From Metridium senile (Eukaryota; Cnidaria; Anthozoa; Actiniaria; Metridiidae), in the NCBI GenBank assembly GCA_949775045.1, contig OX459097.1:15915710-15979709 (forward strand): 64,000 bases of DNA, in the 5' to 3' direction. Below are positions 14,657 to 59,547 of this stretch, in pieces; within the stretch, counting starts at the first letter, position 1; each line of letters starts with the position of its first letter. The notes beneath the pieces were generated by a model that was not told the origin of the DNA, did not search any database, and saw nothing but the letters and a program-made list of their open reading frames with translations. The translations under genes and the position numbers were made by a program.

Positions 14657-14909
14657 GTAAATCATTGCCTCTATTGCAAATATATTTATTAATTAATCTT
14701 TTCATACATCATACATCGTCACTATAATTGTATCTGTAATTCGTTAGCATTTGGCGTTTTTCGGATAAGGACGCTAACTACACTCACTAAACTACATGTA
14801 CCAGTGGATGTAGAAAAAAACATTGAGGAGTTAACAAACACCGGCTGTGAAAGGACACTAAACAGACTTTACATTAATATTATCCTTATTTTCTTTATTT
14901 TTTTGCTAG

Positions 14910-16500
14910 GGGAGAAATTTAACTCGTCAGAAGACAGCACTGTGGGAGCAAAACTTCAGCGTTCTTTATCAAAGGTAGATGGTGACTGGGAGCACAACGA
15001 AAACAACGAAAATTTGCTTTACAATCATTGCACAGCTATGGAAGTTGTGAAGTATTTAAAGCAACCCGCACAAGCAAACCCATACAACGGAGATGACTTT
15101 ACCAGCTTAGATAATAATCAAAAAGAATATTCTACTCAAGATGATAAGGCCCAGAACAACGCAATTGCTCCCTTGGTAGAACAAAAAAAACTACATCTGC
15201 AAGAAGACCCTGTAATGGAAGACAATAATACAACACAAAACGTGGACGATGTTGAGAACCTAGACCTCTTCGAAAAGCAAGAACTTCTACCCGATGAAGT
15301 TTCGATGTATACAGAAAATATTTTACAAAAATTCGATGCTGAAAAGCAAATGGAAAACTACCTATTTTTCCACACAATGGATTTTGCAGGGCAGCCGGTC
15401 TATAGTGTCACTCATCCAGTGTTTCTTCCTCCAAAAGGCATCTATCTTCTTGTTCACAGTTTAAACAAGGACCTACATGCTCAGGCAACCCCCATAATAA
15501 AGACTGGAGCAGTAGAAAGTAAGATTGATTACGATCCAATGACAAATATTGACCACTTGAAATTCTGGTTGTCCCTGATTGATGCTAATTCAACACAGAA
15601 AGGAGGTTCTCCTGTTTTTGTAGTCTCAACACATGCTGATGAACCTTTTGAAGCAGAAGTAAAAAAAACTGCAAGAAAGATTCTTGCATCACTTAGAGAA
15701 AAAGGCTTTGCACCAGGGCGTCACGTCGTTCATGAAATATACACTGTCGACAACACAGTTTCAGGAAGCTCAAGCCCTGAGGATGCTGACATAAAAAAAC
15801 TTAAAACGCAAATATGTAAAAAGGTAAAGAGTCTTCCACAAATGAATGAGGATATTCCAATTCGATGGTTGCTTTTTGAGAAGAAACTGGAGCATCTTGT
15901 CCGAGTTGAGAAGAGAAAGCACATTTCATTTCCAGAAGCCGAAAGTATTGCCTTACAATGTGAAGTGGATATCTCATCAGATGAACTCGAGACATTACTG
16001 AACTATTTACATGACCTTAAAGTGATAATACATTTTCCAGAAACTGGTATGATAATCATCGACACGCAGTGGCTGCTTGACATGTTCGCTAAAGTGATAA
16101 CTGTTCAACCAAGAGAATATCATGAAGGGTATGAAGATGAATGGCGGAAACTCGAGGATCAAGGAATTATCAACGTCAAGTTTCTCGAGCACCTGTGGAA
16201 AGACTTGCTGAACGATGACACATCAGTGGAATCGTTAATTACCATCATGGAAAAGTTCTCTCTCGTTTGCAAACAACGGGATGGATCGTTTCTTGTTCCT
16301 GCAATGTTGTCCAATAGTACAATCGATGAGACGCATGAACTTATGAAAAGTGACGACTGTGCTTCCCCACTGGTCGTTCGATTTCAGAGTTCGCATCTTC
16401 CTTTGGGCTTGTTTCCAAGGCTTCTAGTTGCAGTTGACGAGATATGCAACTTGAAGTGGAAGAGTTCTACTCCACCGCACCTTTCTCGAAATTTTGCAAG
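14910..16500 (+). CDS. ROCO exon: rest of Roc GTPase and COR domain
   Basis: A 1591-bp exon (acceptor TTTGCTAG, donor GCAAG|GTATAT; phase 1 in, phase 2 out). The first 150 or so residues are an acidic low-complexity linker rich in N, D, E and Q. Then come LFFHTMDFAGQPVY (G3 DxxG plus Gln), a GIYLLVHSL strand, the FWLSLI helix and the G4-type FVVSTHADEPF. The COR part starts near IPIRWLLFEKKL and continues through a winged-helix-like region (MIIIDTQWLLDMFAKVI) and GSFLVPAML to FPRLLVAV. The long insert between G1 and G3 is large for a Roc domain but seen in ROCO relatives. The model starts at the splice acceptor; the ATG at 14804 is intronic. Confidence 0.85.
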
Positions 16501-16808
16501 GTATATATACTTTACAGGCCCCATCCACTCTATACCAAGTAAATTGATTTCTTGATGACCACGAGAATGAAATAGAGTTAAAACCGTCCACAATTCGCCG
16601 GGTTTTTTAAATTATTTGACCATGGAGATCGTTTTCAAGAATTTAAGTTCTGTTTTCGGTGACTATTTTTTAGGATAATGTGGACGGGGTCTTATTTTTT
16701 TCGCTCAATTGACATGTAATTTTTTTTGTTCTCTTTTTTGTAGGTTTTACATCCAGAGTGATGAGTTTAGCTTGGTCTTCATGGCCGATACAGCAACAAT
16801 TGCAGTAG

Positions 16809-17156
16809 TATGGTGGCCCATGGTTATCATCCATTTTTATACTATACTTTTCGAATTCTATTTCCATTTCTATTCTTATTTTAATTTCCTTTTCCATTTC
16901 CATTGTGATTTCTATTTTAATTTTGAATTCACGTTCAATTTTAGTATGAAATTGATTTCAAAAGTAAAGTCTAAAACGTTTTATTTATTATTTTTATTAT
17001 TACTAGTATTTTGGTAAATTAAAATTAAATTTGCAGTTGATTTCTCTTTTTAATTCAAAAATTATCTCGCTCGGTCGGCCCATTGGAAAAAAAAAAAAAT
17101 GAAAAGCTTCACGTGGCCCATCGTTATCATTATCAGCGTATCCCATGATCCTTTGC
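16809..17156 (+). repeat. Left terminal inverted repeat of the 4.45-kb transposon
   Basis: This pairs with 20912-21261. It contains a purine/pyrimidine-biased stretch of TTTCCATTTC-type repeats, then an AT-rich block, a poly-A run and CACGTGGCCCATCGTTATCA. Differences from the right copy are few, for example CGGTCGG against CGGCCGG, implying recent insertion or arm homogenisation. Confidence 0.9.
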
Positions 17157-17185
17157 CTGTCACATTCCAGCACGTGGTTTTAGTT

Positions 17186-18388
17186 ATGGCGGATCAATGG
17201 AAGGATGACGAAAGTTTACAACTGGATTTATCAAAGTACGTGAAAGAAAACTTGAAAAGAAAAGAAATTTTAGACTTTGTGAGGAGAGATTACCCAAGTT
17301 ATAGTTGGAGTCTTCCAACTCTCGATCGTCGTCTTCGTTTCTTTGGTATAAAATACATTGATTATGCTACCCCTCTTGAAGAAGTCTCAAATGCCATCGA
17401 AAAAGAGCTCGATGGGCCAGGACAATTACTCGGTTATAGAGCACTAAACCAGAAGTTACGTACTGAATATGATATAAAAGTTCCAAGACATTTAGTATAC
17501 AACATGATGGTGGAGATGGATCCAGAAGGTCTTGAAGCTAGAGGGCTTCAAAAGAAGAAAAAGAAGAAGAAAGTACCATTTGCATGTGAAGGTCCGCTAG
17601 CAGTAGTATCGTTGGATGGTCACGATAAACTTTGCGGTTACCAGAACTGGACTTTTCCTCTGGGTATCTACGGAGCTATCGATACATTTTCAAGGAAAAT
17701 ATTGTTTTTGTACATCTGTCATTCCAACTGAAATCCTGTTATTATCGGTAAACACTACCTTGAATACCTGTATGAAGCCCAAGTAATACCAAAATACTTG
17801 AGGATTGATAAAGGAACGGAGACTGGAAAGATGGCTACACTTCATGCTTACCTTATAAACAGCAAAGGCATCATGGACAATCCTCTTGACTCAGTGATAT
17901 ATGGTCCATCCACTTCGAACAAGATTGAGCGTTGGTGGCGCGATTTACACGAAAGACTTGAGCTCTACTTTAAAGTACAGTTAACCCAGTTATTGAGAGC
18001 AAACGATTACGATCCTTATAACGACCTCCATAGGCAGTTGTTGTCTTATGTATTCATGCCAGTGATCTAGAAAGAATGCGATACATTTGTAAATGTTTGG
18101 AACACTCATAGAATACGCGAGCAAGATAAATTATTACTACCAACAGGTGTACCCAACCATATGTTTTCTTTTCCAGACGATTATGGAGGTGAAAACATGG
18201 GGATCCCTGTAACAGTAGACGAGCTCAAAGAAGTAGCTGAACTTTCTGGTTTACTTGACATTGCAAGTCCAGATAATATATCTACACAAGTACGAAGTCA
18301 GTGTAAGAAGTTGATTGACAATCCTTCACAGCTAGAACCCCATCAAGCAAATAACGCTTATTTATTTCTTAAGCAAAATGTAAAGTAG
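17186..18388 (+). pseudogene. Integrase-core (DDE) transposase with two in-frame stops
   Basis: One frame runs from ATG 17186 to the stop at 18386-18388, about 400 codons, broken only by TGA at 17729-17731 and TAG at 18068-18070. Domains in order: an N-terminal helical, DNA-binding-like region; a Lys-rich linker; then an integrase core with catalytic candidates Asp in VVSLDGHDKL, Asp in YLRIDKGTE, and Glu in NKIERWWRDL, 40 residues after the second Asp. The C-terminal part has WNTHRIREQ and PDDYGGENMGIP, typical of the metazoan integrase-core family found in transposons. Both stops are explained by single C-to-T changes (CGA to TGA, CAG to TAG), so the enzyme is probably dead here. It is convergent with the alpha-kinase gene. 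Confidence 0.85.
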
Positions 18389-19555
18389 ATTTTTGTTCAT
18401 TGCTGGTATTACATGTAAATATCAATATAACTTGGTATTTTACGAGTCATTTGTTGCCCACGTAGCGTGCACTCGCAATGAATCGGAAATCACAGTTCAG
18501 TGATGTGAGAACATTGCAAAAGATTACTGATAATAAGCGTTATCCAAAGAAACATTTGTACTTTTGATGACATTTATAATCGAATCTTTTTATAAAATAC
18601 ATTATTGTTTATTTTATAATTTATTGAATGTAGAAAAAGGGGGAACTTATAAAATTACAAAGCCCAATGTATAAAGTGTTTTGTCTTGCCATCATTGTGA
18701 AATCTACAACAGCCAAGTTTGATATGTACCGTGAGAACACTGCTTTCTCATTGGTTGATATTTTGAGCTTCTCAGATATGAATAAATTTGCAAGCAGTGT
18801 ATTTTTTGTGCTTGGTCGCTAAAAATATAAACAATTTATTTATGGATGGCTTTGTTTCGATATTTAATCGACAATAGCGAATAACAAACGCATCTAATGT
18901 GCAGTCTTTCGAATCAGTTTTTTGAGCTTTTATGGTATAATATAAACACTGTTATTTTTAAGCATTTTAAAAAACAAAGAAACAAAAAAGAACAAGCAAA
19001 ACAACAAATAATTTCGTAAGCTGTTTATTAAACTCAACATTTAGATTTGTTTTATAAACCGTGAAATAAATATTGCCTATAAATGTGTATTAGATGTGTA
19101 CTTGATACAAGAACAAAGGAAAACAATGAATTTGGGCCCTACAAGATATAAAATGTGTATTTAATTCGATAGCTATTTCACGGGTTTATGAAAACCACTA
19201 TCTATAGGCCCTTTTAATAAGTCCCGAAGTGTTGTGTTTTCCGCGCTTGACGTCAAATTTATTCTTTTGCAATTTTGTATGATATGAAAGGAATTGAAAA
19301 TAATAAATTTGACGGCAAGCGCGGAAAACACAACACTTCGGGACTTCCTAAAAGGGTCTATAAAATTGTTCATCAGTTGTATTTTAAAGTAAAAATTTGT
19401 TAGATAGAGTGATTGCATAGTTGTGAAGTGAACAGTAATTATGTAAACTTATAAAGAACTCAAATATTTCGTGTTAATTCAGTAACGCTGAAATCAAGTA
19501 TAACGTAGTAATACATCGCTAGTTTAATTCAGGAACCAAAACGTTCATGCATTTC
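18389..19555. other. Intergenic part of the 4.45-kb transposon
   Basis: No gene was seen between the two convergent genes. The region is AT-rich and contains the hairpin at 19203-19361. Confidence 0.6.
19203..19361. repeat. Hairpin between the two transposon genes
   Basis: CCCGAAGTGTTGTGTTTTCC on the left pairs with GGAAAACACAACACTTCGGG on the right, with outer TATAGGCCCTTTTA/TAAAAGGGTCTATA. Stems are about 60 bp. It could be a nested MITE or a shared 3'-end structure for the two convergent transcripts. Confidence 0.7.
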
Positions 19556-20863
19556 TTAAATGTCTTCAAGTTCCATCATTTTAAAGAACTTATTACACTC
19601 GTGGACTTCTTTGAAGTGATTAATCCCTACGATTGAAAGGTTCCCTGCACAAAAGAAGAATTCCTCCGAGTCATCACTTTCTTCGCTCTGCTCGGGTATC
19701 TCGGTTGTAGCCAATTCAGGGTCGTAAAGATCATACTTGGCGCCCTGAATGTCCAAGATCATCAGCTTTTTCTTTGAATACAGATAACTGAAATGAGCTA
19801 GACACTGTGCTTTTGCGAAGATATCATCATATTCCTTGCTTGGAGAGTCAATACAGTTTCCATCGTTATTGACGTACTTGGAAAAATCACCAGCTACGAA
19901 CTCTTCTACTGTGACGGGACAATCTTCATACAGAGAAAAGTAAACTTTTCCATATTTAAATAAGTCACCAAACTCTACAGGGACTTTTGTTGCAAAACGC
20001 GCGGTGATATTTCTGGCGACAGCGTGCATTTGCACTTGTTTACGGGTGTGATTCTCTAGAGGCATTTGGAGTGTGTTAGTAATTGTCTCAATTGATTTCT
20101 TCGTGTACTTCTTAATTACCCATACTGTTGATTTCTTCCTGCAATTTGCTTTGAAAGCATCTCTAAAAGCGCCGCTTGCGAAAGCCGTTTTCTCCACTTC
20201 TACTTCAATACTTGGAATATCTATCCATTTGCAGCTCTCGACATTGAATATTTCTAACTTTAATATGGCGACTTGGGGTGGCTTGACAAGTTTACCCGCT
20301 TTCATCAGGTCACCAATAGAAATTGATTTGGGATAAACTGTCCTAGGCATACATACTTGCCTAGTGCTAGATTGTGCTACGGCTTTGGATGGTGAAATCG
20401 GAACGGATTTAACCCCCTTTAGTACCGGTACTTGCTTCTTTGAATGTGAGAAATCTTCCTCCTTTGGTTGAAGAAAGCGAATACAGTAAACTTTTTTTCC
20501 TTTTATTTGCTCCATTTTATTACAGGACGGCCCCCTATCTGATGCCAGAACATCACACGATCCTGTTGGGGCCTTGTAGAATCGCTCACAGGCTTCTTTT
20601 ATGGTTTCGATGGACAATTCCTCGTATTCTGCGAACGGGACAAAGTCCCTTGTGTCCAAAGGTTCGTACTTTTTTAGCCGTCCTGAAGGCGTGGAAGCCA
20701 TTCGTTGAACTAAAATATCATTCGGAACTTTGCCATGTCCTCGCTTCTCCTCGAATTCTCCTCTACCGTTCCTTTTTTGCCCGACTCTTTTTTCAAAATC
20801 ATCCCAAGACTCTTTGAGCTTTCTTTTTTTCATTTTCGTGGCAGTAAACACATAAACAGCCAA
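19556..20863 (-). CDS. Alpha-type protein kinase carried by a DNA transposon
   Basis: An uninterrupted 435-codon frame. The native start may be Met11 (MKKRKLKESWDDFEKR, codon at 20833) rather than Met1. Residues about 1-50 are basic and nuclear-signal-like. About 75-130 form a small domain with FVPFAEYEELS, CDVLASDRGPSC and VYCIRFL. The C-terminal half is an alpha-kinase fold: FASGAFRDAFKA (glycine-loop region), STVWVIKKY (candidate ATP-binding Lys), VEEFVAGDFSKYVN, LAHFSYLYS, LMILDIQGAKYDLYDPELAT (catalytic/metal-binding segment) and a closing GNLSIVGINHFKEVHECN. Alpha-kinases (MHCK, eEF2K and TRPM6/7 families) phosphorylate Ser/Thr. Its place between intact terminal repeats marks it as cargo or as part of the element's biology. 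No introns were seen. Confidence 0.88.
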   Translation of the reverse strand: MAVYVFTATKMKKRKLKESWDDFEKRVGQKRNGRGEFEEKRGHGKVPNDILVQRMASTPSGRLKKYEPLDTRDFVPFAEYEELSIETIKEACERFYKAPTGSCDVLASDRGPSCNKMEQIKGKKVYCIRFLQPKEEDFSHSKKQVPVLKGVKSVPISPSKAVAQSSTRQVCMPRTVYPKSISIGDLMKAGKLVKPPQVAILKLEIFNVESCKWIDIPSIEVEVEKTAFASGAFRDAFKANCRKKSTVWVIKKYTKKSIETITNTLQMPLENHTRKQVQMHAVARNITARFATKVPVEFGDLFKYGKVYFSLYEDCPVTVEEFVAGDFSKYVNNDGNCIDSPSKEYDDIFAKAQCLAHFSYLYSKKKLMILDIQGAKYDLYDPELATTEIPEQSEESDDSEEFFFCAGNLSIVGINHFKEVHECNKFFKMMELEDI

Positions 20864-20911
20864 GCGATCGCGACTAGTCTAACCGCACGTGGTTTCTTAT
20901 GCAACATATTC

Positions 20912-21261
20912 GCAAAGGATCATGGGATACGCTGATAATGATAACGATGGGCCACGTGAAGCTGTTCATTTTTTTTTTTTTTTCAATGGGCCGGCCGAGC
21001 GAGATAATTTTTGAATTAAAAAGAGAAATCAACTGCAAATTTAATTTTAATTTACCAAAAATACTAGTAATAATAAAAATAATAAATAAAACGTTTTAGA
21101 CTTTACTTTTGAAATCAATTTCATACTAAAATTGAACGTGAATTCAAAATTAAAATAGAAATCACAATGGAAATGGAAAAGGAAATTAAAATAAGAATAG
21201 AAATGGAAATAGAATTCGAAAAGTATAGTATAAAAATGGATGATAACCATGGGCCACCATA
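20912..21261 (-). repeat. Right terminal inverted repeat of the 4.45-kb transposon
   Basis: Reverse complement of 16809-17156. Its inner edge lies about 50 bp upstream of the alpha-kinase ATG at 20863, so the repeat may contain that gene's promoter. Confidence 0.9.
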
Positions 21262-22008
21262 CAGTAGCCTTAATCGACGACGTGAACCCAGGTCGACGTG
21301 ACGACGTTTATGTTCAACAGTGCAGGTCCATATTAGAATTCCTACTTAAGACCCTACAGAAAACGATCACATCTTTCCCTTGGATGAGAAGTCTGACTGA
21401 ATTCGACTTCTGTATGCGTTGTCCTACTTGCCGTACCTCTTGCAAAAAGCACAACAAAAACAACTGTCCCCGAGACTCCTGTGCCCACCTTGTATCAGAA
21501 AAAGAGCTTTTGGAGACTACTAAACCTCGGTGTCAAAAGAACCCGACAATGAAAATGAATTTTATACCAGAGACTTCCTACTCACACTGGTTTCCAAGAT
21601 CAAAGATTCAGGTAATTTGGTCATGACATTAATATTATAACAGTTACATCTATTTCAAAAATCAGGTCATTCAGGTTGCAGCCAAAGCTACAATCCAATG
21701 CACATCCATCCCCCCCCCCCCCCTTCCGAATTTTGCCTCTGCAACGAGCCGCATCAATTTAATCTGATTTAAATTCGTGAATGCAATACACAAGATGCAA
21801 TTTTTCGCGGGGCCATGTCGTGTCATGTCAGGGCTGTATGTTAGATAACTTTTAGTGTTAATACGTATTTTCCCTCGTAAAATAAAGTTTATTGTATTGT
21901 ATTGCGTTAACAAAGCGGCCCTGGTTCGAGTATTTGCACTGACAAACAATACTAAAATTTTTAGCGCCCTATCCGTAGTGACGAGGTTTATTTTACATTC
22001 TATACTAG

Positions 22009-29880: not shown

Positions 29881-32800
29881 CTGTGGAAGTAACAAAATAT
29901 CAGCCTTAAGCCATTTTACAGTGAGGATACTCGAACCGTGAACACTTGACTTTTTTCATGTTATTATTTTATCTTCTACTACCTCAAAAACTCTAAAAAT
30001 CAAGCAGTTTAGTTTAGTTTAGTTTAATAGAATTCGTCATAACAAGATATTACATAACAATATTTGTATGAACAGGTGAAAATTACAGGACGAAAATCCC
30101 AATTGACAATTTAAACCTATAAAAAAGTAAAACATCAAATAAACAAAGTTAACAAATATCGAAATAATTAATATAAACAGAAAAATATTTTAAATCTATG
30201 GTGGCCGATAGTTGTTAATTTATTTGAGTACAGAATTTGGAGTAGATTTTTGAAATTAGATAGGCTATCAACGTTCTTTAAGTTCGAGGGGAGACTGTTC
30301 CACAAAGCTATAGTTCTGGGAAAGTATGATTTACGGTAGTAATTTTGTTTGTGATGTAAAAGAGGTCTATAGTTCGAAGGGTCAAAGTTCCGAGTAGAGT
30401 ATCTTGAGGTAGACGGAATTAGTAGGTTGGAAAAACTTTTTATGTCGATGATTTCGGATTTAATCTTGTAAAACAATGTCAAGTCGATGATATCACGTCT
30501 ATGTTCTAACGGTAGTAGATTAAGAGTTTTGAGTCTTTCTGTGTAGCTTACATCGGAGGGTGGATAGTTTAATATAAATTTGGTTGCTCGACGTTGGATG
30601 TTCTCTATTAAAGCTACATGCTTAGCTGTGTGTGGCGACCACAAATTACTTGCGTATTCTAATCGGGGTCTAACCAAAGTACAATAGAGGAGCTGTTTTG
30701 TTGCAGGATCGCGTATGTGGCAGCAAACTCGCTTCACAAGTCCTAATAATTTGTTGGCGTTTGAGCACATGAGTTCAGTGTGTGATTTCCATGACAGATC
30801 TGTGGTCACAAGTACACCAAGGTCTTTTGTTTGGTTTGCAGATTCAAGAACCTGCCCAGCCAGATGGTAGGATTGCTTGTTAGTGTTCTTTTTTTTGGAC
30901 ATTTGTAAAACTTTGCATTTAGAAGTACTGAATTCCATTCCATGGTCTAGACTCCACTTATGTAAGGAATCTATGTCCGCTTGTAGACAAAGAGCAGATG
31001 TTGGGGAGTCAACAGAGTGATAGAGTTTAGAGTCGTCGGCATAAAGGGCGATTGTAGAACCGCCTTGCACATAACATGGTATATTGTTAGCATAGACCAA
31101 AAAGAGCAGGGGCCCCAGAATTGACCCCTGCGGAACGCCAGATAGTACCGGTAGCCAAGATGAAGAAGTTCCGTTCAGTACTACACGTTGCTGTCTGTTA
31201 GACAGATATGATTCAAACCACTCCAGAAGAGAGCCCGCAACTCCATATTCCCTTAGCCTTGTTATAAGATGGAGGTGTGAAACCTTATCAAAGGCTTTAG
31301 AAAGGTCTAAGTGAACAACATGTATCTCACTACCACTTGCTAGTTTATCCAAGATGTCATTGTATACTTCCAGTAGTTGTGTAACAGTTGATTTTCCTTT
31401 GAGGAAACCGTGTTGAAGATGGTATAAGGATCTTTCAAGGTGAGCAAAGCAGTGGTTGTAGACACAGCGTTCAAAGACTTTGGATACGATAGGTAGAAGT
31501 GAAATAGGTCTGTAGTTCTCTGGTAAAGTCGGGTCGTCTTTTTTAAATACTGGTGTGACATTGGCTCGTTTCCACAAATTGGGAAACGAACCAAGTGATA
31601 GTGATAGATTAAATAGCTGACACAAGGATGGAGCAATCTCATTGGCGGTGTTTTTTAATAGGGCACCAGGGATATCATCTGGACCGTTTGCTTTATTTGG
31701 GTCAAGATTCAGAAGAACTTTCTCCACTTCAGCAGCAGTTAAGCTAACAGAACATAGTTCCACGTCGACTTGAGTGGTCGAGTTGACGCTAGTAGATTGT
31801 AGAGGTGTTGCCAAGCAAAATACAGAATGAAAGAACTGGTTTAGGGTATTTGCCATTTCTTTAGTGTTAGTTATGAAAGATTGACCATTTCGTAGGAAGC
31901 TGAGGGATAGATTGACAGTTGTCTGAGACTTCACATATTGCCAGAAACGTTTGGGATTTTCAGCGATGGAATTTTTCAGTTTTTCTGCAAGATCTTTTCG
32001 TTTTTGGGATATCAGCTTTTTTGTAGCACGACGGAGATCATTAAACTTATTCTTTGCCAAGAGAGAGCCCGTTTTGATTGCCTTTTTTCTCTGCGCATCC
32101 TTCTTTTTAAGCATTGATCGGAGCTCTTTATCAATCCACGGATGATTGTTTACATTTTTAACTTTTGATTTAGGAATGTGATCGTCGACAGCAGAAAGGA
32201 ACAAATCATTCCAATTAGCAAGTGATAAGTTAATGTCGTCAGGGACAAAGCATAAGTCCCACGGGATTTTTTTACTGATGCTTTGAGTCCCGTCCAATTT
32301 GCATTTTTGAAATTGTAAACAACGCGTTTCACTTTCGGTCGTTTTGAAACTTTAAGACTTAACTCAAAGCTAATTAATTTGTGGTCTGTACATATGATAT
32401 CGTCGTACCCATGTATATGCTGGAACTTGGTTGGAATGGTAGTCAAAATTAAATCCAATATGTTTTGTTTTCTAGTTGGAAAGTCTACTAGTTGCCATAA
32501 GTAATTGTCTTTGATAAGCTTGGTAAAATAAATATATACAGCATCGTTCGATGTTGCAGTTCCTGTGTTCCAATCTATTTCTGATAAGTTGAAATCACCG
32601 ATTAGAATTATTTGATCAAACTTGGCTTTTGATACCAAGCGTAGAGTTTTCTTGAGTTGTTTAAGACAGTAGACATCGCTGTCAGGTGGCCTATAGAAAA
32701 CAATTGCCAATATTTTTCGTCTCGAGTTAGGATGGAGTTCGCAAACTAAAATTTCTGCATCCGTTTCGAGATCAGGACGACGTCGGCTTAGGATGTGATT

Positions 32801-35800: not shown

Positions 35801-38800
35801 CATTCGACTCCATTATGGCTGGATATTCCAGTCGAGAATTAAATACTAGTATTTATATATATTGAAATGAAGACTTAAATATAATTTCTCTATGATGAAT
35901 CCTATATAATAGGTGTTTTATTTATATATTGAACAAAATAATTTTTCAAAATATCTTCAGTAAACAATTAAAATGTTGCACTCCAATAGGTTGGTGTCCA
36001 ATATAGCAACATAATGGATTGTCATGTGACTAAAATATGGAGGTGTGATTGTAGGATTATTTGTGAGGTGTAGTAAAACTAGATGTGACCGGCCTTACTT
36101 GATCTTCCATTCATCTCTCTTGCTATGCCATGGTCAACTAATTCATACATGAAGTATCCAAGTACAGTAAGGATGCTTGATATTGTGAACAGGAGTGTTG
36201 GAGAAAGAACCTTGTCATCCATGTACACAAACAAAGCCACAAATAAACACACACTGAGGATTGAACCACAAGTGAATCAAATCATTGGATCAATTTATAC
36301 ATGAATTAATGAACAAATCAAGCAAACAGTCAGTTAATCAACCATTCAATCAATCAGTCAGACAATCAATCAATCAAACAATCAATCAGTCAGACAATCA
36401 ATCATTCAATTAATTACTCAGTTAGACAATAATTTATTCAATCAATCAGACAATGAATCAGTCAAACAATCAATCAGTCAAACAATCAATCAGTCAGACA
36501 ATCAATCATTCAATTAATTACTCAGTCAGACAATAACTTATTCAATGAATCAGTCAGACAATGAATCAGTCAAACAATGAATCAGTCAAACAATGAATCA
36601 GTCAAACAATCAATCAGTCAGACAAACAATCAGTCAGACAATCAATCAGTCAGACAATCAATCAGTCAGACAATCAATCAGTCAGACAATCAATCAGTCA
36701 GACAATCAATCAGTCAGACAATCAATCAGTCAAACAATCAATCAGTCAAACAATCAATCAGTCAAACAATCAATCAGTCAGACAATCAATCTGAGTCAGA
36801 CAATCAATCAGTCAGACAATCAATCAGTCAAACAATCAATCAGTCAAACAATTAATCAGTCAAACAATCAATCAGTCAAACAATCAATCAGTCAGTCAAT
36901 TAATCAGTCAAACAATCAATCAGTCAGACAATCAATCAGTCAAACAATCAATCAGTCAGTCAATTAATCAGTCAAACAATCAATCAGTCAGACAATCAAT
37001 CAGTCAAACAATCAATCAGTCAAACAATTAATCAGTCAAACAATCAATCAGTCAAACAATCAATCAGTCAGTCAATTAATCAGTCAAACAATCAATCAGT
37101 CAGACAATCAATCAGTCAAACAATCAATCAGTCAGTCAATTAATCAGTCAAACAATCAATCAGTCAGACAATCAATCAGTCAGACAATCAATCAGTCAAA
37201 CAATCAATCAGTCAGACAATCAATCAGACAATCAATCAGTCAGACAATCAATCAGTCAGACAATCAATCAGTCAGACAATCAATCAGTCAAACAATCAAT
37301 CAGTCAAACAATCAATCAGTCAAACAATCAATCAGTCAGACAATCAATCTGAGTCAGACAATCAATCAGTCAGACAATCAATCAGTCAAACAATCAATCA
37401 GTCAAACAATTAATCAGTCAAACAATCAATCAGTCAAACAATCAATCAGTCAGTCAATTAATCAGTCAAACAATCAATCAGTCAGACAATCAATCAGTCA
37501 AACAATCAATCAGTCAGTCAATTAATCAGTCAAACAATCAATCAGTCAGACAATCAATCAGTCAGACAATCAATCAGTCAAACAATCAATCAGTCAGACA
37601 ATCAATCATTCAATTAATTACTCAGTCAGACAATAATTTATTCAATCAATCAGTCAGACAATGAATCAGTCGATTAATCAATCAGTCAGTCAGACAATCA
37701 ATCATTCAATAAATCAGTCAGACAATCAATCATTCAATTAATCAGTCAGACAATAATTCATTCAATCAATCGGTCATGCAGTCAGACAATCAATCATTCA
37801 ATTAATCAGTCAGACAATAATTCAATCAATCAATCAGTCAGACAATCAATCAATCATTCAATTAATCAGTCAGTCAATAATTCATTCAATCAATCAGTCA
37901 GACAATCAATCAGTCAATCAGTCAGTCAATAATTCATTCAATCAATCAATCAATCAATCAGTCATGCAGTCAGACAATCAATCGATCAATCATTCAATTA
38001 ATCAGTCAGTCAATAATTTACTCAATCAATCAGTCAGACAATAATTCATTCAATCAGTCAATCCGACAATAATTCATTCAATCAATCAGTCAGTGAGGTT
38101 AATCAACCAATCAGTGATCCAGTAGTCAATAAATAAAAAGTCAGTCAGTCGGCTGGTATGAGGTCAGTCCCAGTCAATTAATTAATACATATGTCAATCA
38201 GTAAATCAATCAGTCAGTCCATCAATTCAACTCAATCAATCAGTCTGTCAGTTAGTCAATTATTTAGTTAAATCAATAGTCAATCAATAATTTGACAAAC
38301 AATCAGTCAGCCAATCAGTCAGTGATATTGTCAGTTAGTCAATCAATCAACCATCATCAATCATTGCTCAGTAAAAATGTACCATTACCTGCTAATTTGT
38401 TGTGATACAATGCAAGATTCCCATGCTACATACCAGAAGTCATATGTCCTTGTATAAACTGATAACAAAAACACATTGCATTACTAAATCAAGTGTATTC
38501 TTATAGGCAGGAGTAAAGACCCATGGTCACTTAACCAGCATGCTTTGTATTGTTTATTACATTGGATTACTAAATCAAGTGTATTCTTATAGGCAGGATT
38601 AAAGACCCATGGTTACTTAACCAGCATGCTTTGCATTGTTTATTACATTGTATTACTAAATCAAGTGTATTCTTATAGGCAGGATTACAGAACCATGGTC
38701 ACTTAACCAGCATGCTTTGTATTGTTTATTACATTGTATTACTAAATCAAGCGTATTCTTATAGGCAGGATTAAAGACCCATGGTTACTTAACCAGCATG

Positions 38801-41800
38801 CTTTGCATTGTTTATTACATTGTATTACTAAATCAAGTGTATTCTTATAGGCAGGAGTAAAGACCCATGGTCACTTAACCAGCATGCTTTGTATTGTTTA
38901 TTACATTGTATTACTAAATCAAGTGTATTCTTATAGGCAGGATTAAAGACCCATGGTTACTTAACCAGCATGCTTTGCATTGTTTATTACATTGTATTAC
39001 TAAATCAAGTGTATTCTTATAGGCAGGATTACAGACCCATGGTCACTTAACCAGCATACTTTGCATTGTTTATTACATTGTATTACTAAATCAAGTGTAT
39101 TCTTATAGGCAGGATTACAGACCCATGGTCACTTAACCAGCATACTTTGCATTGTTTATTACATTGTATTACTAAATCAAGTGTATTCTTATAGGCAGGA
39201 TTACAGACCCATGGTCACTTAACCAGCATGCTTTGCATTGTTTATTACATTCTATTACTAAATCAAGTGTATTCTTATAGGCAGGATTATACAGGGATTC
39301 TGGCATTATGCGAGGAAAAATCAAAATTATGCGGAATTTTTTCGGAAGATTATGCGGAAGAAACGATAAATTATGCGGAAAATTATGCGGGATGACGTAA
39401 TCGCTTAAAACTTAAAACAAAACTAATTACACTTACTTTAGCCCTACTATTTTGGTTCTTTTTTACACATAAATGTCATATCATTCGTTTTTTATCAATA
39501 ATTCAAACTAATAACAACACTATAACCTAAAGAACTAACGATTGACTAACGATTTCCGTTAAACGTTCCGCCATCTTGGAAAACCGCCAAACAGCATTGG
39601 GCCTGGGCCGAGATACAGGAAGCCCAATACTATAGAAGTAAAAACAAAATGGCGTCGCTTCGACGGCTGGTTCAGTGTAAGCCGTGAAAATGAACAATTT
39701 GTACTTCGTACGACTGTAACAAAATGGCAAAAAACTATTCAAGCAAGCAAGGGAGTTAATTAACATATAAATATCTATTGTTTTATCTATTTAATTTGTT
39801 TTATTGGTGCTTTTTTGGTGCTTTTATCTATTTTTTTTTTTTTTGGCAAATTATGCGGGATTATGCGGAAAGTAGTCAATTATGCGGGTCCGCACCTCCG
39901 CATAATGCCAGAATCCCTGATTATAGACCCATGGTCACTTAACCAGCATGCTTTGCATTGTTTATTACATTGTATTACTAAATCAAGCGTATTCTTATAG
40001 GCAGGATTACAGACCCATGGTCACTTAACCAGCATGCTTTGCATTGTTTATTACATTGTATTACTAAATCAAGTGTATTCTTATAGGCAGGATTACAGAC
40101 CCATGGTCACTTAAGGAGATTCCGTAGTTTTGCATTGCGCACGCTCTCACAGGAAAAAAATATGAAAAACCAAATCTGTTTTTAGTCGTTTTTTATCTGT
40201 TTTTTTCGAAATCCATATAACAAATGTTATCCAAATATGGTTTTTACCTGGTTTTTAAAAGATATCAATAAATAGCAATACAAAAAACAGTCCTGGTTTT
40301 CTGTAAATCCATGCTTAACCTGTTTTGCTTAAAAAACTTACTTGTTTTTAATAAAAACCAAAAATGGATTTAAAATATTTTTTTCCAGACATGTTTTTTT
40401 CAAAATTTCCAGATGTGGATTTTACAAATACCATGCCTGGATTGCAAAGAATCCAGTATAACAAATAACCAAGACTGGATTACCAGCTAACCAAATCTGG
40501 ATTGTTTCAAACACCATGCCTGGATTGTAAACAATCCAGTATAACAAATAACCAAGACTGGATTACCAGCTAACCAAATCTGGATTGTTTCAAACACCAT
40601 GCCTGGATTGTAAACAATCCAGTATAACAAATAACCAAGACTGGATTACCAGCTAACCAAATCTGGATTGTTTCAAACACCATGCCTGGATTGTAAAGAA
40701 TCCAGTATAACAAATAACCAAGACTGGATTACCAGGTAACCAAATCTGGATTGTTTCAAACACCAAGCCTGGATTGTAAACAATCCAGTATAACAAATAA
40801 CCAAGACTGGATTACCAGCTAACCAAATCTGGATTGTTTCAAACACCATGCCTGGATTGTAAACAATCCAGTATAACAAATAACCAAGACTGGATTACCA
40901 GCTCACCAAATCTGGATTGTTTCAAACACCATGCCTGGATTGCAAAGAATCCAGTATAACAAATAACCAAGACTGGATTACCAGCTAACCAAATCTGGAT
41001 TGTTTCAAACACCATGCCTGGATTGTAAACAATCCAGTATAACAAATAACCAAGACTGGATTACCAGCTAACCAAATCTGGATTGTTTCAAACACCATGC
41101 CTGGATTGTAAAGAATCCAGTATAACAAATAACCAAGACTGGATTACCAGCTAACCAAATCTGGATTGTTTCAAACACCATGCCTGGATTGTAAACAATC
41201 CAGTATAACAAATAACCAAGACTGGATTACCAGGTAATCAAATCTGGATTGTTTCAAACACCATGCCTGGATTGTAAACAATCCAGTATAACAAATAACC
41301 AAGACTGGATTACCAGGTAACCAAATCTGGATTGTTTCAAACACCAAGCCTGGATTGTAAACAATCCAGTATAACAAATAACCAAGACTGGATTACCAGC
41401 TAACCAAATCTGGATTGTTTCAAACACCATGCCTGGATTGTAAACAATCCAGTATAACAAATAACCAAGACTGGATTACCAGCTAACCAAATCTGGATTG
41501 TTTCAAACACCATGCCTGGATTGTAAACAATCCAGTATAACAAATAACCAAGACTGGATTACCAGCTAACCAAATCTGGATTGTTTCAAACACCATGCCT
41601 GGATTGTAAACAATCCAGTATAACAAATAACCAAGACTGGATTACCAGCTAACCAAATCTGGATTGTTTCAAACACCATGCCTGGATTGTAAAGAATCCA
41701 GTATAACAAATAACCAAGACTGGATTACCAGCTAACCAAATCTGGATTGTTTCAAACACCATGCCTGGATTGTAAACAATCCAGTATAACAAATAACCAA

Positions 41801-44800
41801 GACTGGATTACCAGGTAATCAAATCTGGATTGTTTCAAACACCATGCCTGGATTGTAAACAATCCAGTATAACAAATAACCAAGACTGGATTACCAGGTA
41901 ACCAAATCTGGATTGTTTCAAACACCAAGCCTGGATTGTAAACAATCCAGTATAACAAATAACCAAGACTGGATTACCAGCTAACCAAATCTGGATTGTT
42001 TCAAACACCATGCCTGGATTGTAAACAATCCAGTATAACAAATAACCAAGACTGGATTACCAGCTAACCAAATCTGGATTGTTTCAAACACCATGCCTGG
42101 ATTGTAAACAATCCAGTATAACAAATAACCAAGACTGGATTACCAGCTAACCAAATCTGGATTGTTTCAAACACCATGCCTGGATTGTAAACAATCCAGT
42201 ATAACAAATAACCAAGACTGGATTACCAGCTAACCAAATCTGGATTGTTTCAAACACCATGCCTGGATTGTAAACAATCCAGTATAACAAATAACCAAGA
42301 CTGGATTACCAGCTAACCAAATCTGGATTGTTTCAAACACCATGCCTGGATTGTAAACAATCCAGTATAACAAATAACCAAGACTGGATTACCAGCTAAC
42401 CAAATCCCTCTGAGGCCCCTGAAAAAACGGCATGGCGTGACGATTTTGAACCCTATAAAGGGATACCACATGAAAAAAAAATTAAAAAAGAAAAAAAATG
42501 TACGGATTCCAGTTCCTTTTATGATCCCCTGAACTGAGATAACTAGATATAGATACATTTTAGAATGTTTAAAATTAAGTTTAAAACCGTACTGAAAGGT
42601 GCAAAATCAATGATATATGCTTGTTTGTAAGTTCGTTAGGCTCGTTTGTTTTATTTGTTCGTCTGTTTGTTTGTCTATATGTCTATATGTCTGTTTGTTA
42701 GTTTGTTGTGCGTGTTTGTTTTATTTTTGATTGTTTTCCTTTTTTTTCTCTTCAGTCGGTCTGTCTGTTTGCTTCCTTTTATGTTGTTATACGAGTAAAT
42801 GATTGGGGTTCCTGTCTCAAAAATCATTAGCCAATCAAAGCGGAGATATTGAATCACGTGATTGAAATCAAATTTTGGCGCAGAGCGGCCATTTTAACCG
42901 TTTGCCTTGGGGGAATTACAAGTTACTTTTCTGTTAAAAATCATCCGTTTTTGATGTTTTAGTGTATTGAGCATTGTAGAAATACTTGGGAAATATTGCT
43001 TAATGTCCATAGCGGAAGGGAGAGTATGTTTTTGAGTTACAACAGCTGATTTACAAGACTTTCACAAGACTCGAAAATTTGTCAGCTCGAATCGACAGTT
43101 TCAAATCTTTGGTAAGTGTAATTTAGCATTACTTACATAATTATCAGAGTATTATTGTGTTATTACATTCCATTGACATTATTATGGACATCAGCAGTAT
43201 TTCAACTGTGTTTTAAAACATTGAAGCACGTACATACAGCCAAATCTTGCACGTTTGCCTTGCATATTTGAAAATTGCATTATTGCGAAAAATTACTAAC
43301 TAAAAGCACAGTAAAATAACTCAGTAATTTGCTTCTTTTATTACTTAGGTTGTACATTATTGGGTCCTTAATAAATCTACGAAAATGAATTGAACAGGAA
43401 AAGAGCATCTAAACTTGTAAACAGAGGCAATCAACGAGAGATAGATAAGTGATCTTGCATGGATTGATATATGTGCTTTTTCTTTGAAAGCACACACTTT
43501 GTAGAGGTTGTGCTAGACTGGTTATTCTATAACTAAGATAATCAATGAGTTAGACATTGAAAAAGTGATAACTTGATCGAAGAAGTTCATTAGGGGAAAA
43601 GGAGAGTCATTTTGGTAGGGAAAAGGCTTCTCAACTTTGGCGCCAAAATTTGCTTTATGATCAAAGTAATCTATAATACTACAATTATTATTTGAAATAC
43701 CTTGACTAAAGGATCTTTAAATTGAAGAAAACCTCTTAATTTGGCCATTTTGTTACTAAAAGTAGCAAATTAATGACAAAAAGAACAAAAAGAATTTTAA
43801 AATTTTGAATTTTGGTGCCAAAATTGTGATCTAAAAATCTCAAAAATTAAAAACATCTCAAAGTAAAAGTGATTTAGGGCCATATTACAAAGTGAAGTTG
43901 CCTTTTTGACCTTTGTCATAGACGCATCTGGCTTTTTTTTTGCTGTAGTATGTCACTTTGTTACAAAGCTCTTTCGCTTTTGACGTTTCTTCGTTTGAGC
44001 TTTGACATTTTATCTACAGGAGATTTGTCAGTACAATATCAAAGTCAGATTCAAAGGCATTTCTTGTGCACTATAGAGAAAGGACTGTTAACTATATACA
44101 TGTGCTTTGATCAATCAATCCATCACTTTGTGCATGCATATTTACATGAAATATAACATCCATTCTTGCTGGAAATGTAAATAACTATATAACATAAATA
44201 TATCTGAGGTTGTTGATTTATTTCAAGCAGTTTCATCTCCACAAGGCAACCTATTTAGTCTTAACTTTGATTATTTAAAACAACAATTCTAGTGCAAAAA
44301 ATACATCCGTGAAATACAAATTATTAAATAGTGTAAAATAGTGCTAATAAAACAATAGAATTTGCATAAAATTGCACTAACTAGTATTATTAATGTTTCA
44401 CAGATATACTTTTTGCACTCTATTCAGTTATTAAACCTGACTGATGGTGATTTTCAAATATTGCAAAGAATTAAGTTCCTTTCGGATATACAGTTAGCAC
44501 TCTTTTAGAACAACGCAAAAACAATAGATTCAGTCTGATTTAAAAACTGGCTAATCATTGTAATCTGTGCCAAATTAAAGTTAAGATGTAAAACAAATCA
44601 CTTTCTGGAGAGAAAACGCTGGAAACCAATCACTAAACCTTTATCCAAAAGAGAGGAAATATTTACCTGCAAGAACATCATATTTTAAAACAAAGAAATG
44701 AATTATTTTAGAAGCCACTTTTCATGGTATACATGTAAAATGCATACAAGACAGTGGTGGATTGTTTATAGTTACTAGTCCTTTCTCTATAGTGTGCAAG

Positions 44801-47800
44801 GAACACCTTTGGATCTGACCTTGACTTATTGTCGCTCTTGGCCACTGTGAACAAGAGTGGCAATAAAAAAGTCAAAATGAAAAAAGAAAAATGTTCAACA
44901 GAAAAACGTCAAAAGCAAAATTGTTCTGTGACAAGTTGCAATGGGGCAAAGTGTTTTGTGACAAAGTGACAAAATCAATTCTAACTAAAGTCAGATGTGT
45001 CAATGACAAAGGTAAAATAGACAACTTTGTAATATGCCCCTAAATCATTTTTAATTTTGGACTTCTTGATTTTTTCACTGAATTTTTAACTCCTGCTCTC
45101 AGGCAGCATACAATCAATGCTCCACATAAAACCTCAAAATCAACATTTTTATTTAAAACGTATAAGTCCAAAACTTCATACTACTTTGCCATCATTTTTG
45201 AATTATTTCAATCAGTAAATGCTTTTCTTGACACCACGGGCCATTACTCAAAAACTAAGCATTTTATCAAAACAGAAGACACAGTTTTAAAGATACATAT
45301 GTACTGGTTGACATAACTCAAAAATCATGGCAAAGCAGTTTAATAAGAACTTTTTGACTTAAATACGTTTTTTATCAACTCGCAAATGAAAGCGTTCAAT
45401 TTTGGGGTTTTCTTGTAGCACATTAGATATCATTAATCTGAGAAAAGAAAGGGCCAAACTCTTGCTGAAAAAAACAGCTGAAATATCACTGAATCAATCT
45501 CTGGTTTAAAGAGAATTTTAACCTATGATAAGTGTTAGTCTACAATTAAAATCCCTGACCCAGGATGAGTAAATCCTAGGTTAAAAAATGCATTGATCAA
45601 ATGGGAAACTAACCCTGGATTTACTCATCCTGGGTCAGGGATTTTAATCAAGTACTAATTGTAGAGTTTTAGTTATTAAACAAATACATCTATTTAGCTT
45701 TGCTATTTCATTACAGTATGGACTGTACATCACAATCTGACAGTTGAGGTATATAGCTGCAATTTTTTATTAAGAACAATGCTGTCAGTGCCTTGTACAA
45801 AGTGTTTCATGGATGTTTAACCAATGCACTCTACATAAAGGTTAAGAATAAAGTGACTTATAAATAACATGTGATGCTGAAGTAAATAAATATATAACTG
45901 TATGCTTGTTAATGAATGAAGTACAGTAAATTGTATTGGTATATTATTAAAGGGATTAAGCCACACAATCATATTTATCATGATTTCCATAGCAGAAACC
46001 AGACCTGTTCAGTGTGAAAATCCAGATTTGTTTTGTTGCATTTCCATACCAGGTTTCCAAGCAAACCAGACCTGTTTAGTGTGAAAATCCAGATTTGTTT
46101 TATTGCATTTCCATATCAGGTTTCAAAGGAAACCAGACTTGTTTAGTGTGAAAATCCAGATTTGTTTTGTTGCATTTCCATACCAGGTTTCCAAGGAAAC
46201 CAGACTTGTTTAGTGTGAAAATCCAGATTTGTTTTGTTGCATTTCCATACCAGGTTTCCAAGGAAACCAGACTTGTTTAGTGTGAAAATCCAGACTTGTT
46301 TAGTGTGAAAATCCAGATTTGTTTTGTTGCATTTCCATACCAGGTTTCCAAGGAAACCAGACTTGTTTAGTGTGAAAATCCAGATTTGTTTTGTTGCATT
46401 TCCATACCAGGATTGTCAAAAGACAGACCTGGTTGTCAATAAATCCCATGTTTATTCCAGCTTTGGTTTTGTGAAAAACCGAACCTGGTTTCAAATGAAT
46501 ATCCAGATCTGGTTTTACTGCAATTTAACCAGATCTGGATATTTTTTAAAAACCAGAGTAAATCCAGGTAAAAACCAGTTAAAAACCTGGCTGGTTTTTG
46601 ATGATTTTTTCCTGTGTCTACTGCGCACAATTTTGACCAGCGAGAGCGCGCGCTACAGCTCGCGCACCTTGCGCGCGCTATGTCGGTATTACTAAAAGAT
46701 CACAATTCGTACATTCAAAGTGCCATAGCGCCAAAACGAATACGGTGACCTATCTTTTTTATTTTATTGAATTAAAGATATCCACGTTTTCAAATACATA
46801 TCTGAGTCTGAATAAAAATCTATGTCCAGATTTCGAGATATTTCAAGAAGTGTGGTAATATTGTGCAACCCAGGTGTTCGCGAACGATACGCTCGAGTAA
46901 CTTCGAGTATTGCTTTATCGCTATTATCTTTTAACAGGTTCACTTTTCTATCCAAGTTTTGTGTGTGAATGAAGATTTGGGGTGCTAAGATGAAATAAAA
47001 CCTGATATTTCAATACTAATATCAAAAAAGAGTACCATTTAATCGCCTTTTATTCTCATTTTATACATCGAAATATTACTCCCGCATGCCGTCGAAATGA
47101 GTAACTTTGACGTGATCTAGTGCCAGAACCAACACGGTGACCCCCATTTTTTATTTTATTTTTGAAATGCCCATGTCTTAAAGTATAACTGTACAAAGTT
47201 TCAATAAAAAGTTATGTCAAAATCTATTACTACGGAATCTCCTTAACCAGCATGCTTTGCATTGTTTATTACATTGTATTTCTAAATCAAGTGTATTCTT
47301 ATAGGCAGGATTACAGACCCATGGTCACTTAACCAGCATGCTTTGCATTGTTTATTACATTGTATTACTAAATCAAGTGTATTCTTATAGGCAGGATTAC
47401 AGACCCATGGTCACTTAACCAGCATGCTTTGCATTATTTATTACATTGGATTACTAAATCAAGTGTATTCTTATAGGCAGGATTACAGACCCATGGTCAC
47501 TTAACCAGCATGCTTTGCATTGTTTATTACATTGTATTACTAAATCAAGCGTATTCTTATAGGCAGGATTACAGACCCATGGTCACTTAACCAGCATGCT
47601 TTGCATTGTTTATTACATTGGATTACTAAATCAAGTGTATTCTTATAGGCAGGATTACAGACCCATGGTCACTTAACCAGCATGCTTTGCATTGTTTATT
47701 ACATTACATTACTAAATCAAGTGTATTCTTATAGGCAGGATTACAGACCCATGGTCACTTAACCAGCATGCTTTGCATTGTTTATTACATTGTATTACTA

Positions 47801-57450: not shown

Positions 57451-59547
57451 GTAAGGTGGCGAGTATGGGCCGATTTCTGCTCCAGGTGCCCTGGTCTAAC
57501 TTATTATTCACCCAGCAGTCAAGCGAAGAGAAACTCAAAATCCTCATGGAAATCATCAACCTCGGATTGGACTTCATCATGCCTGAACGGTCGGTGAAAG
57601 ACCATGAAACTGATCGCCCTTGGATAACTGCTCAACTAAAGAGTCTTATCTCTCGCCGCCAAAAGGCCCTCGCCTCTTATAATGATTCTCTCTCTCTACA
57701 AGATCCTACGAAATAAAGTGAACCGGGAACGTAAGCGATGTCGCAAAGCTTACTACGAAACTAAAGTTAAGAACTTGGGCGACACTAAGCCTCGTGATTG
57801 GTGACGGGAAGTATAACAGCTTTGCGGTACGGCCAACGAACTGGGCGTGATCTATCATCTATACTCCACGCTGACCTAGCTTGTGATGATTCTGTTTTGG
57901 CGGGAAAGATCAACGATGCGTTCGTTAGCGTGATGAAAGACTATATGCCTCTACCAGTGCCTACTTTCCTAGATATGACGATCAACCAATATCCGTCAAC
58001 GAGTATTCAGTTGCTATAAAACTTCGAGCTGTGAGTACTTCCAGAGCAGGTGGCCCTGACAATCTTCCCAATTGGGTGCTGAAGGAATTTGCTGACATTT
58101 TGGCTACACCAGTCGCTGACATCCTTAACTCTTCTTTTGCTGAATGTAAAGTTCCTCAAGTCTGGGAGCTTGCCGACGTCCCACCACTTCCCAAGGCTAC
58201 TACAGTACGCGACTTTAACAAGGACCTGAGACCAATCTCACTCACGTCCTCGCTGTCTATAGCTAAGATTGCTGAATCCTTTGTCATTGAAAAGTCCTTA
58301 AAACCTACTATGTTATCATCTATCGATCCCAACCAGTATGGCTTCATTCCTGGCTCGTTCACGACCCTCGCACTTATCTCCATGCTCAACCATTGGCTCA
58401 GCACCACCGACAGAACTGGATGGTCTGTAAGAACTGCCTTAGTCGATTTCCGCAAGGCCTTTGACCTGGTTGACCACCAGACGCTAGTGGCCAAGCTCTC
58501 TAGTCTTGGCGTAAAACCTGCTACCTTGAATTGGATTATTGACTTTTTGAGAGACAGACAGCAAAGGGTAAAGCTTGGTGGACTTAGCTACTCTGACTGG
58601 CAAAGTGTTCCAGCTGGGGTTCCTCAGGGGACCCGTCTTGGTCCTTGGCTATTTTTGGCCATGATCAATGATCTGGAGACACCCAATGCCTCTACACTTA
58701 TGTGGAAGTTTGCCGATGATACTACTGTTTCCGAAGCAATCCCGCCATCTAGCCACAGCATACTGCAACAAGCCATTAACCACATCAGTAGTTGGTCCAA
58801 CGAGAATTTACTTCAAATTAATCCAACCAATAATAAGGAGATCTTCACTACCTTCAAGAGAAACGCCGTCAATCACATGCCCATGGAGATTGACGGGATA
58901 CAATTCGACCAAGTTTCATCTGTGAAAGTGCTCGGTCTGACGATCCAAAACAATCTGAAATGGAATAATAACATCCAAGGCTGCAAAGCGTTTATACCTT
59001 CTACGACAGCCCAAGCGTGCTGGGATAAACTCTTCTGACCTAGTGCAGTTTTACTGTGCTGTGATAAGATCAGTACTAGAATATGCGTGCCAGGTATTCC
59101 ATCGCAGCCTCCCTGACTACCTATCTACCCAGATTGAGGCAATACAGAGGCGCGCAATGAGAACGATTTACCCAGAGCTCAACTACTCAGAGGCACTTCA
59201 GGCAGCTGAATTAACAACACTGTCTGCCAGGCGTGATATATTGTCCAACGACTTATTCGAGATGATAGCCAATGATTCAGACCACAAGCTGGCTTCACTT
59301 CTCCCGCCGAAGGCCTCCAACAACAGAAAACTACGGAGGATGAGACAATTTGACATTCCCCATTGTAGGACGAATCGATTTAAAAATTCTTTTATACTCA
59401 GTCACTCAATGGAACATTTTAGTAGCCCATAATTTTCAAAATTTATTGTAAATAGTATATTCAATACTAGATGCAATATAGGTGCAATATATTTATCGAA
59501 TTTTTATAAATTATAGTTATTATAGTTAGTGTATATATATATATATA

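Follow-up and report, generated by a model that had tools for sequence, protein, structure and literature searches.

A 64,000-nt stretch of DNA from the cnidarian Metridium senile, hereafter called the window, contains at positions 16809-21261 a single IS3EU-type DNA transposon with an alpha-kinase gene inside it. The element lies between terminal inverted repeats (TIRs) and a target-site duplication (TSD), and its DDE transposase gene on the plus strand converges with the alpha-kinase gene on the minus strand, with a foldback between them. We consider it probable that this is a cut-and-paste transposon from a lineage whose standard gene set comprises a DDE transposase and an alpha-kinase of its own that regulates transposition. 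The element and its parts are as follows.

16809-21261: IS3EU-type DNA transposon, 4453 bp, bounded by TIRs and TSD
16803-16808, no strand: TSD CAGTAG, left copy, from sequence comparison
21262-21267, no strand: TSD CAGTAG, right copy, a perfect 6-bp match to the left copy
16809-17156, plus strand: left TIR, 348 bp, starting TATGG
20912-21261, minus strand: right TIR, 350 bp, ending CCATA
17109-17130, plus strand: second, inner copy of the terminal motif, GTGGCCCATSGTTATCAT, differing from the terminal pattern at 3 bases; candidate further binding site for the transposase at the left end
20938-20959, minus strand: inner copy of the terminal motif within the right TIR, 3 mismatches; candidate site with a putative function
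17186-18388, plus strand: IS3EU-type DDE transposase gene, 400 codons with two in-frame stops
19203-19362, no strand: foldback with 66-bp arms, a nested miniature inverted-repeat transposable element (MITE) or a convergent 3' end structure
19556-20833, minus strand: alpha-kinase gene, open frame of 425 amino acids (aa), Phe at zinc-ligand position 417
20459-20719, minus strand: residues 39-125 of the kinase protein, an unclassified N-terminal domain that is better conserved in alignment A1 (below) than any other part of the protein
21268-21626: right-hand part of a probable split exon, open across the empty site

Borders, genes and class of the element

The two TIRs are nearly identical, with 345 of 348 aligned bases in common plus two 1-nt indels. 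Re-measurement returned exactly the unit, the 348- and 350-bp inverted repeats and the CAGTAG duplication that an initial annotation, made from the sequence alone, had delimited. The IS3EU type is also supported. The terminus definition was taken from PMC12730594 (Kojima 2025) and PMC10045372. The element has a 6-bp TSD (CAGTAG), TAYGG..CCRTA (TA..TA) termini in the form TATGG...CCATA, TIRs longer than 30 bp (348 and 350 bp; a criterion stated for rust families in PMC12730594), and an integrase-like DDE transposase (PF24764, D144-D208-E248, integrase fold). When the whole 64 kb was searched with a 22-base terminus pattern, allowing at most 3 mismatches, 4 matches were obtained, namely both element ends, which are exact, and the two inner sites; 100 shuffles gave an expectation of 0.00.

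Each gene begins no more than 80 bp inward of one of the near-identical ~350-bp TIRs. The integrase core of the transposase matches PF24764 with an E value of 1.3e-22 when stops are read as X, and it carries the triad D144/D208/E248. Its frame is broken by TGA at 17729 and TAG at 18068, and the plus-strand DDE transposase with two stops is thus as originally described. The transposase profile had no match to PDB sequences at E 0.1. Searches of the window with the two protein profiles, also at E 0.1, found no further kinase or transposase fragments, and Rfam returned nothing at its gathering score within 16700-21400.

The kinase protein contains an alpha-kinase domain recognized by both profile and fold (PF02816, E 2.2e-26). 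The catalytic Lys, Glu, Asp, Gln and Asp are all present (K241, E310, D361, Q363 and D371), with roles assigned by correspondence with TRPM7 via the alignment.

Between the genes, foldback arms at 19203-19268 and 19297-19362 are 92% complementary, which bears out the hairpin that had been proposed to separate two convergent genes. The folding energy of 19196-19370 is -100.7 kcal/mol, a value without a shuffle control. The foldback is near-perfect, ends in TATAGGCCCTTTT..AAAAGGGTCTATA, and could be a nested MITE. The sole listed open reading frame (ORF) of at least 60 aa between 18388 and 19556 is 81 aa long and lies over the foldback region, and at this ORF size no room was seen for a TET/JBP gene between transposase and kinase.

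Relatives of the two genes and the state of the window copy

Protein searches found 193 kinase homologues and 450 transposase homologues, and a profile search found 232 for the kinase. Each homologue list comprises the best 120 of these totals. Alignment A1 holds 65 near-full-length kinases chosen from the best 120 of 193, and alignment A2 holds 64 transposase homologues from the best 120 of 450; the VIA lists effectively covered kinase 184-425 and transposase residues 63-361. Names among the best 120 listed include the cnidarians Paramuricea, Actinostola, Stylophora, Oculina, Clytia, Dendronephthya and Exaiptasia and the tunicates Ciona and Phallusia. No fungal names occur among the kinase homologues listed (best 120 of 193 and best 120 of 232), where names are given for a minority of rows. 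In NCBI, five kinase relatives (P0007, P0019, P0044, P0051 and P0255) bear the names of host-type genes, for instance TRPM6-like or myosin heavy chain kinase-like.

The pairing of transposase and kinase looks like a family feature because nine exact contig sizes occur among both the kinase and the transposase homologues listed, and two of these contigs, of 2842 and 5435 nt, are too small for the two genes to lie far apart. Another of the shared contigs is a 12.3-Mb sequence from Ciona, which says little about gene distance. Over all sizes, 9 of 133 kinase contigs match transposase contigs, compared with a mean of 0.9 and a maximum of 3 when sizes are shifted. For contigs of at least 3 kb, the match is 8 of 87 versus a mean of 0.05 and a maximum of 1. 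Left out of this comparison were seven kinase and five transposase rows without a size, as well as P0233 and P0240, whose transposase contig sizes equal no kinase one.

No kinase relatives were found in viral contigs or in prokaryote genome contigs, and no transposase relatives were found in viral contigs. One weak transposase relative is present in a contig (L001; VBAU01000213.1) filed as a Bacteroidetes metagenome-assembled genome, where positions 716-1726 hold a broken IS3EU-like transposase that is 30% identical. This contig may be a eukaryotic contaminant. It gave no kinase match to the profile built from A1, and three of its other ORFs matched no Pfam family above the cut-off.

A domain is predicted with confidence for residues 39-125 of the kinase protein. 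Its mean identity in A1 is 0.63, and 30 of its 87 columns reach at least 90% conservation; the kinase domain has a mean identity of 0.46 (53 of 237 columns). For the transposase core in A2 the corresponding values are 0.61 and 53 of 140 columns. As far as values from different sets of relatives can be compared, the non-catalytic N-terminal domain thus equals the transposase core roughly in conservation, against 0.46 for the kinase domain, and this is the strongest hint that the kinase may have a role in transposition. On its own, the N-terminal domain of the window protein matched no Pfam family, and among PDB sequences it drew only a chance-level match to Ataxin-1 (E 1.3). Stray Pfam matches among the 66 full-length A1 members were to WYL_2 and PIG-S, in one member each.

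The initial annotation described a complete alpha-kinase on the minus strand. Its open frame of 425 aa stands, but the conserved zinc site of two His and two Cys is not complete. Residue 417, presumably a zinc ligand by correspondence with TRPM7, is Phe in the window kinase and Cys in all 57 relatives with a residue at this position (8 of the 65 in A1 have a gap). Among the 57 relatives covering all nine catalytic and zinc sites, 54 keep every residue, the exceptions being P0044, P0054 and P0068. Because the window kinase lacks a ligand that 57 of 57 relatives retain, the open frame is weak evidence for selection, and the earlier suggestion that selection may have kept this kinase, read from its uninterrupted frame, is not supported. 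Constraint on the kinase is visible across the family only, at the protein level. Intact kinase copies do exist, since P0001, which is 98% identical to the window kinase (9 differences in 425), keeps the cysteine at 417. The window copy is probably defective in both genes, given the two stops in its transposase and the missing zinc-ligand cysteine in its kinase.

Insertion site, proposed mechanism and rival explanations

Removing the element and one TSD copy leaves an empty site across which a frame of 162 codons is open (43 from the left and 119 from the right), and the other two frames across the junction are open for 1 and 23 codons. This empty site, the TSD and the TIRs establish that the element has been mobile. 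Read from the sequence, the left side of the joined frame continues past a likely splice acceptor. The upstream gene (14804-16555) encodes a COR-A domain, and its match to Roc falls short of the cut-off. The element probably interrupts a host exon, and that exon perhaps belongs to the upstream Roco-type gene.

The same site bears on whether a host alpha-kinase gene might have had transposon repeats assembled around it, which the initial annotation named as one outcome that would count against it. NCBI does name some relatives as host-type genes (TRPM6-like, MHCK-like). However, a fixed host kinase gene or a misassembly is unlikely because the flanks join into the open 162-codon frame. Against it also stand the perfect TSD, the TIRs that directly flank both genes, the 193 kinase relatives, and the contigs shared with transposases. 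Host-gene misassembly was rejected on the TSD and the open frame across the empty site, and we regard it as extremely improbable.

Elsewhere in the window, ORFs with reverse transcriptase matches (RVT_1), which appear to be of the non-long-terminal-repeat type, lie at 30168-32297 (minus strand) and 58031-59038 (plus strand). Large tandem arrays span 36306-48302. They include an 83-bp unit repeated 24 times at 40409-42406, an 86-bp unit at 38473-39289, 39919-40114 and 47242-48302, and a 16-bp unit at 36347-38042.

In the mechanism that we favor, both genes would probably be driven by the same TIR promoter sequence, to judge from their position near the inner ends of the TIRs. The transposase would bind the motif copies at the outer and the inner end of each TIR, excise the element, and insert it with a 6-bp staggered strand transfer, whose only direct trace is the TSD. 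The kinase would be a conserved accessory protein of the element. Its N-terminal domain would serve for docking to a conserved partner, the likeliest being the transposase or the transpososome, and its kinase domain would phosphorylate the docked partner or a bound host factor, thereby regulating transposition or silencing. The window copy would be a defective insertion, probably interrupting an exon beside the Roco/COR gene.

The kinase might instead be passenger cargo, that is, a host kinase captured once that has no role in transposition and is perhaps of occasional benefit to element or host. In eukaryotes, alpha-kinases (TRPM, MHCK, eEF2K, ALPK) are ordinary genes, the kinase of the window copy is itself probably damaged, and passive capture of host genes by transposons has been argued for TET genes (PMC12730594). 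This is nevertheless hard to square with an N-terminal domain of such high conservation and with 54 of 57 relatives retaining every catalytic and zinc residue, with the contigs that the two proteins share, one of which is from Ciona, and with the opposite orientation that is found in fungi too (PMC12730594). We therefore judge simple cargo unlikely. In a self-defence function, the kinase would phosphorylate a host factor involved in silencing or repair, as a counterpart to the fungal TET genes. TET-bearing fungal IS3EU elements carry, between transposase and kinase, a TET/JBP gene whose product has been proposed as an anti-silencing enzyme (PMC12730594). However, an N-terminal domain strongly conserved across divergent elements would fit a partner encoded by the element at least equally well, such that we find self-defence doubtful though worth keeping in view.

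Several points weigh against a standard kinase that regulates transposition. Such a function is a proposal drawn from sequence, and kinase-less copies of this transposon may not be rare. Proximity of the two genes elsewhere is deduced from equal contig sizes, among which only 2842 and 5435 nt force closeness. Across ten pairs, that of the window among them, the identities of kinase and transposase are correlated (r 0.54, p 0.006), but the correlation drops to r 0.45 (p 0.0497) for the seven pairs on shorter contigs. Of 92 columns with at least 90% conservation, the window kinase departs from 3, an ordinary number (the 65 relatives have a median of 2 and a maximum of 12), which leaves position 417 alone as the case for damage. 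In addition, the right flank by itself matched no Pfam family; a homologue of the joined exon was not sought.

A broader proposal, which we offer tentatively and would not be surprised to see fail, is that the IS3EU transposition system of animals and fungi has, as a core subunit of ancient origin, an alpha-kinase that carries its own docking domain at the N terminus and controls the transposase by phosphorylation, and that many of the expanded genes annotated as 'alpha-kinase', 'TRPM6-like' or 'MHCK-like' in cnidarians and rusts are transposon genes. To our knowledge, it is rare for a cut-and-paste transposon to carry a conserved signalling enzyme. Should the kinase be core to IS3EU in animals and fungi, these elements would offer a testable transposon with built-in phosphorylation control.

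Comparison with known systems

Several studies describe alpha-kinases in rusts. The family is strongly expanded there (PMC4469406), PF02816 is among the families enriched in wheat rusts with a ratio of 2.34 (PMC5295586, Table 3), and one rust gene with an alpha-kinase domain is among 46 genes under diversifying selection (PMC4150398). If the broader proposal is true, such expansions (PMC4469406; PMC5295586) may partly be mobile-element genes counted as host genes.

Among known alpha-kinases, TRPM7, MHCK A, eEF2K and ALPK1 match the window kinase in the fold and sequence of the kinase domain. The window kinase differs in being borne by a transposon and in its N-terminal domain, which has no Pfam or PDB sequence match. 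Among the matches listed from the open-licence literature, which does not include Repbase Reports, there was no animal report of an IS3EU transposase-kinase pairing and there were no papers on cnidarian alpha-kinases.

IS3EU/GingerRoot elements, as described in PMC10045372, have an integrase-like DDE transposase, TA..TA termini and usually a 6-bp TSD. They resemble the window element in transposase type, termini and TSD; unlike the case here, the main text has 0 occurrences of the word 'kinase'. A 2012 meeting report describes Entons and Intons, transposons of fungi that encode five to six conserved proteins and derive from En/Spm and IS3EU ancestors (PMC3520738). We take the Intons to be the IS3EU-derived ones. 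They would share IS3EU ancestry with the window element but are fungal and have five to six proteins.

The initial annotation left open whether the pairing of transposase and alpha-kinase had been described. It is already in print for fungi, in IS3EU families from rusts and Tuber indicum that bear TET genes (PMC12730594), and among the papers examined this is the sole one to state it. There, the rust elements have a 6-bp TSD and TAYGG..CCRTA ends, all of the TET-bearing families hold TET between the transposase and alpha-kinase genes, these two genes are in opposite orientations, and TET is proposed to counter silencing by undoing methylation. Compared by description, these families share with the window element a DDE transposase and an alpha-kinase in opposite orientations within one element; convergence is what the window genes show, whereas for the fungal families opposite orientation is what is stated. 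The fungal elements carry a TET/JBP gene between the two genes and live in fungal hosts, whereas the window element has only a foldback in that position and resides in an animal.

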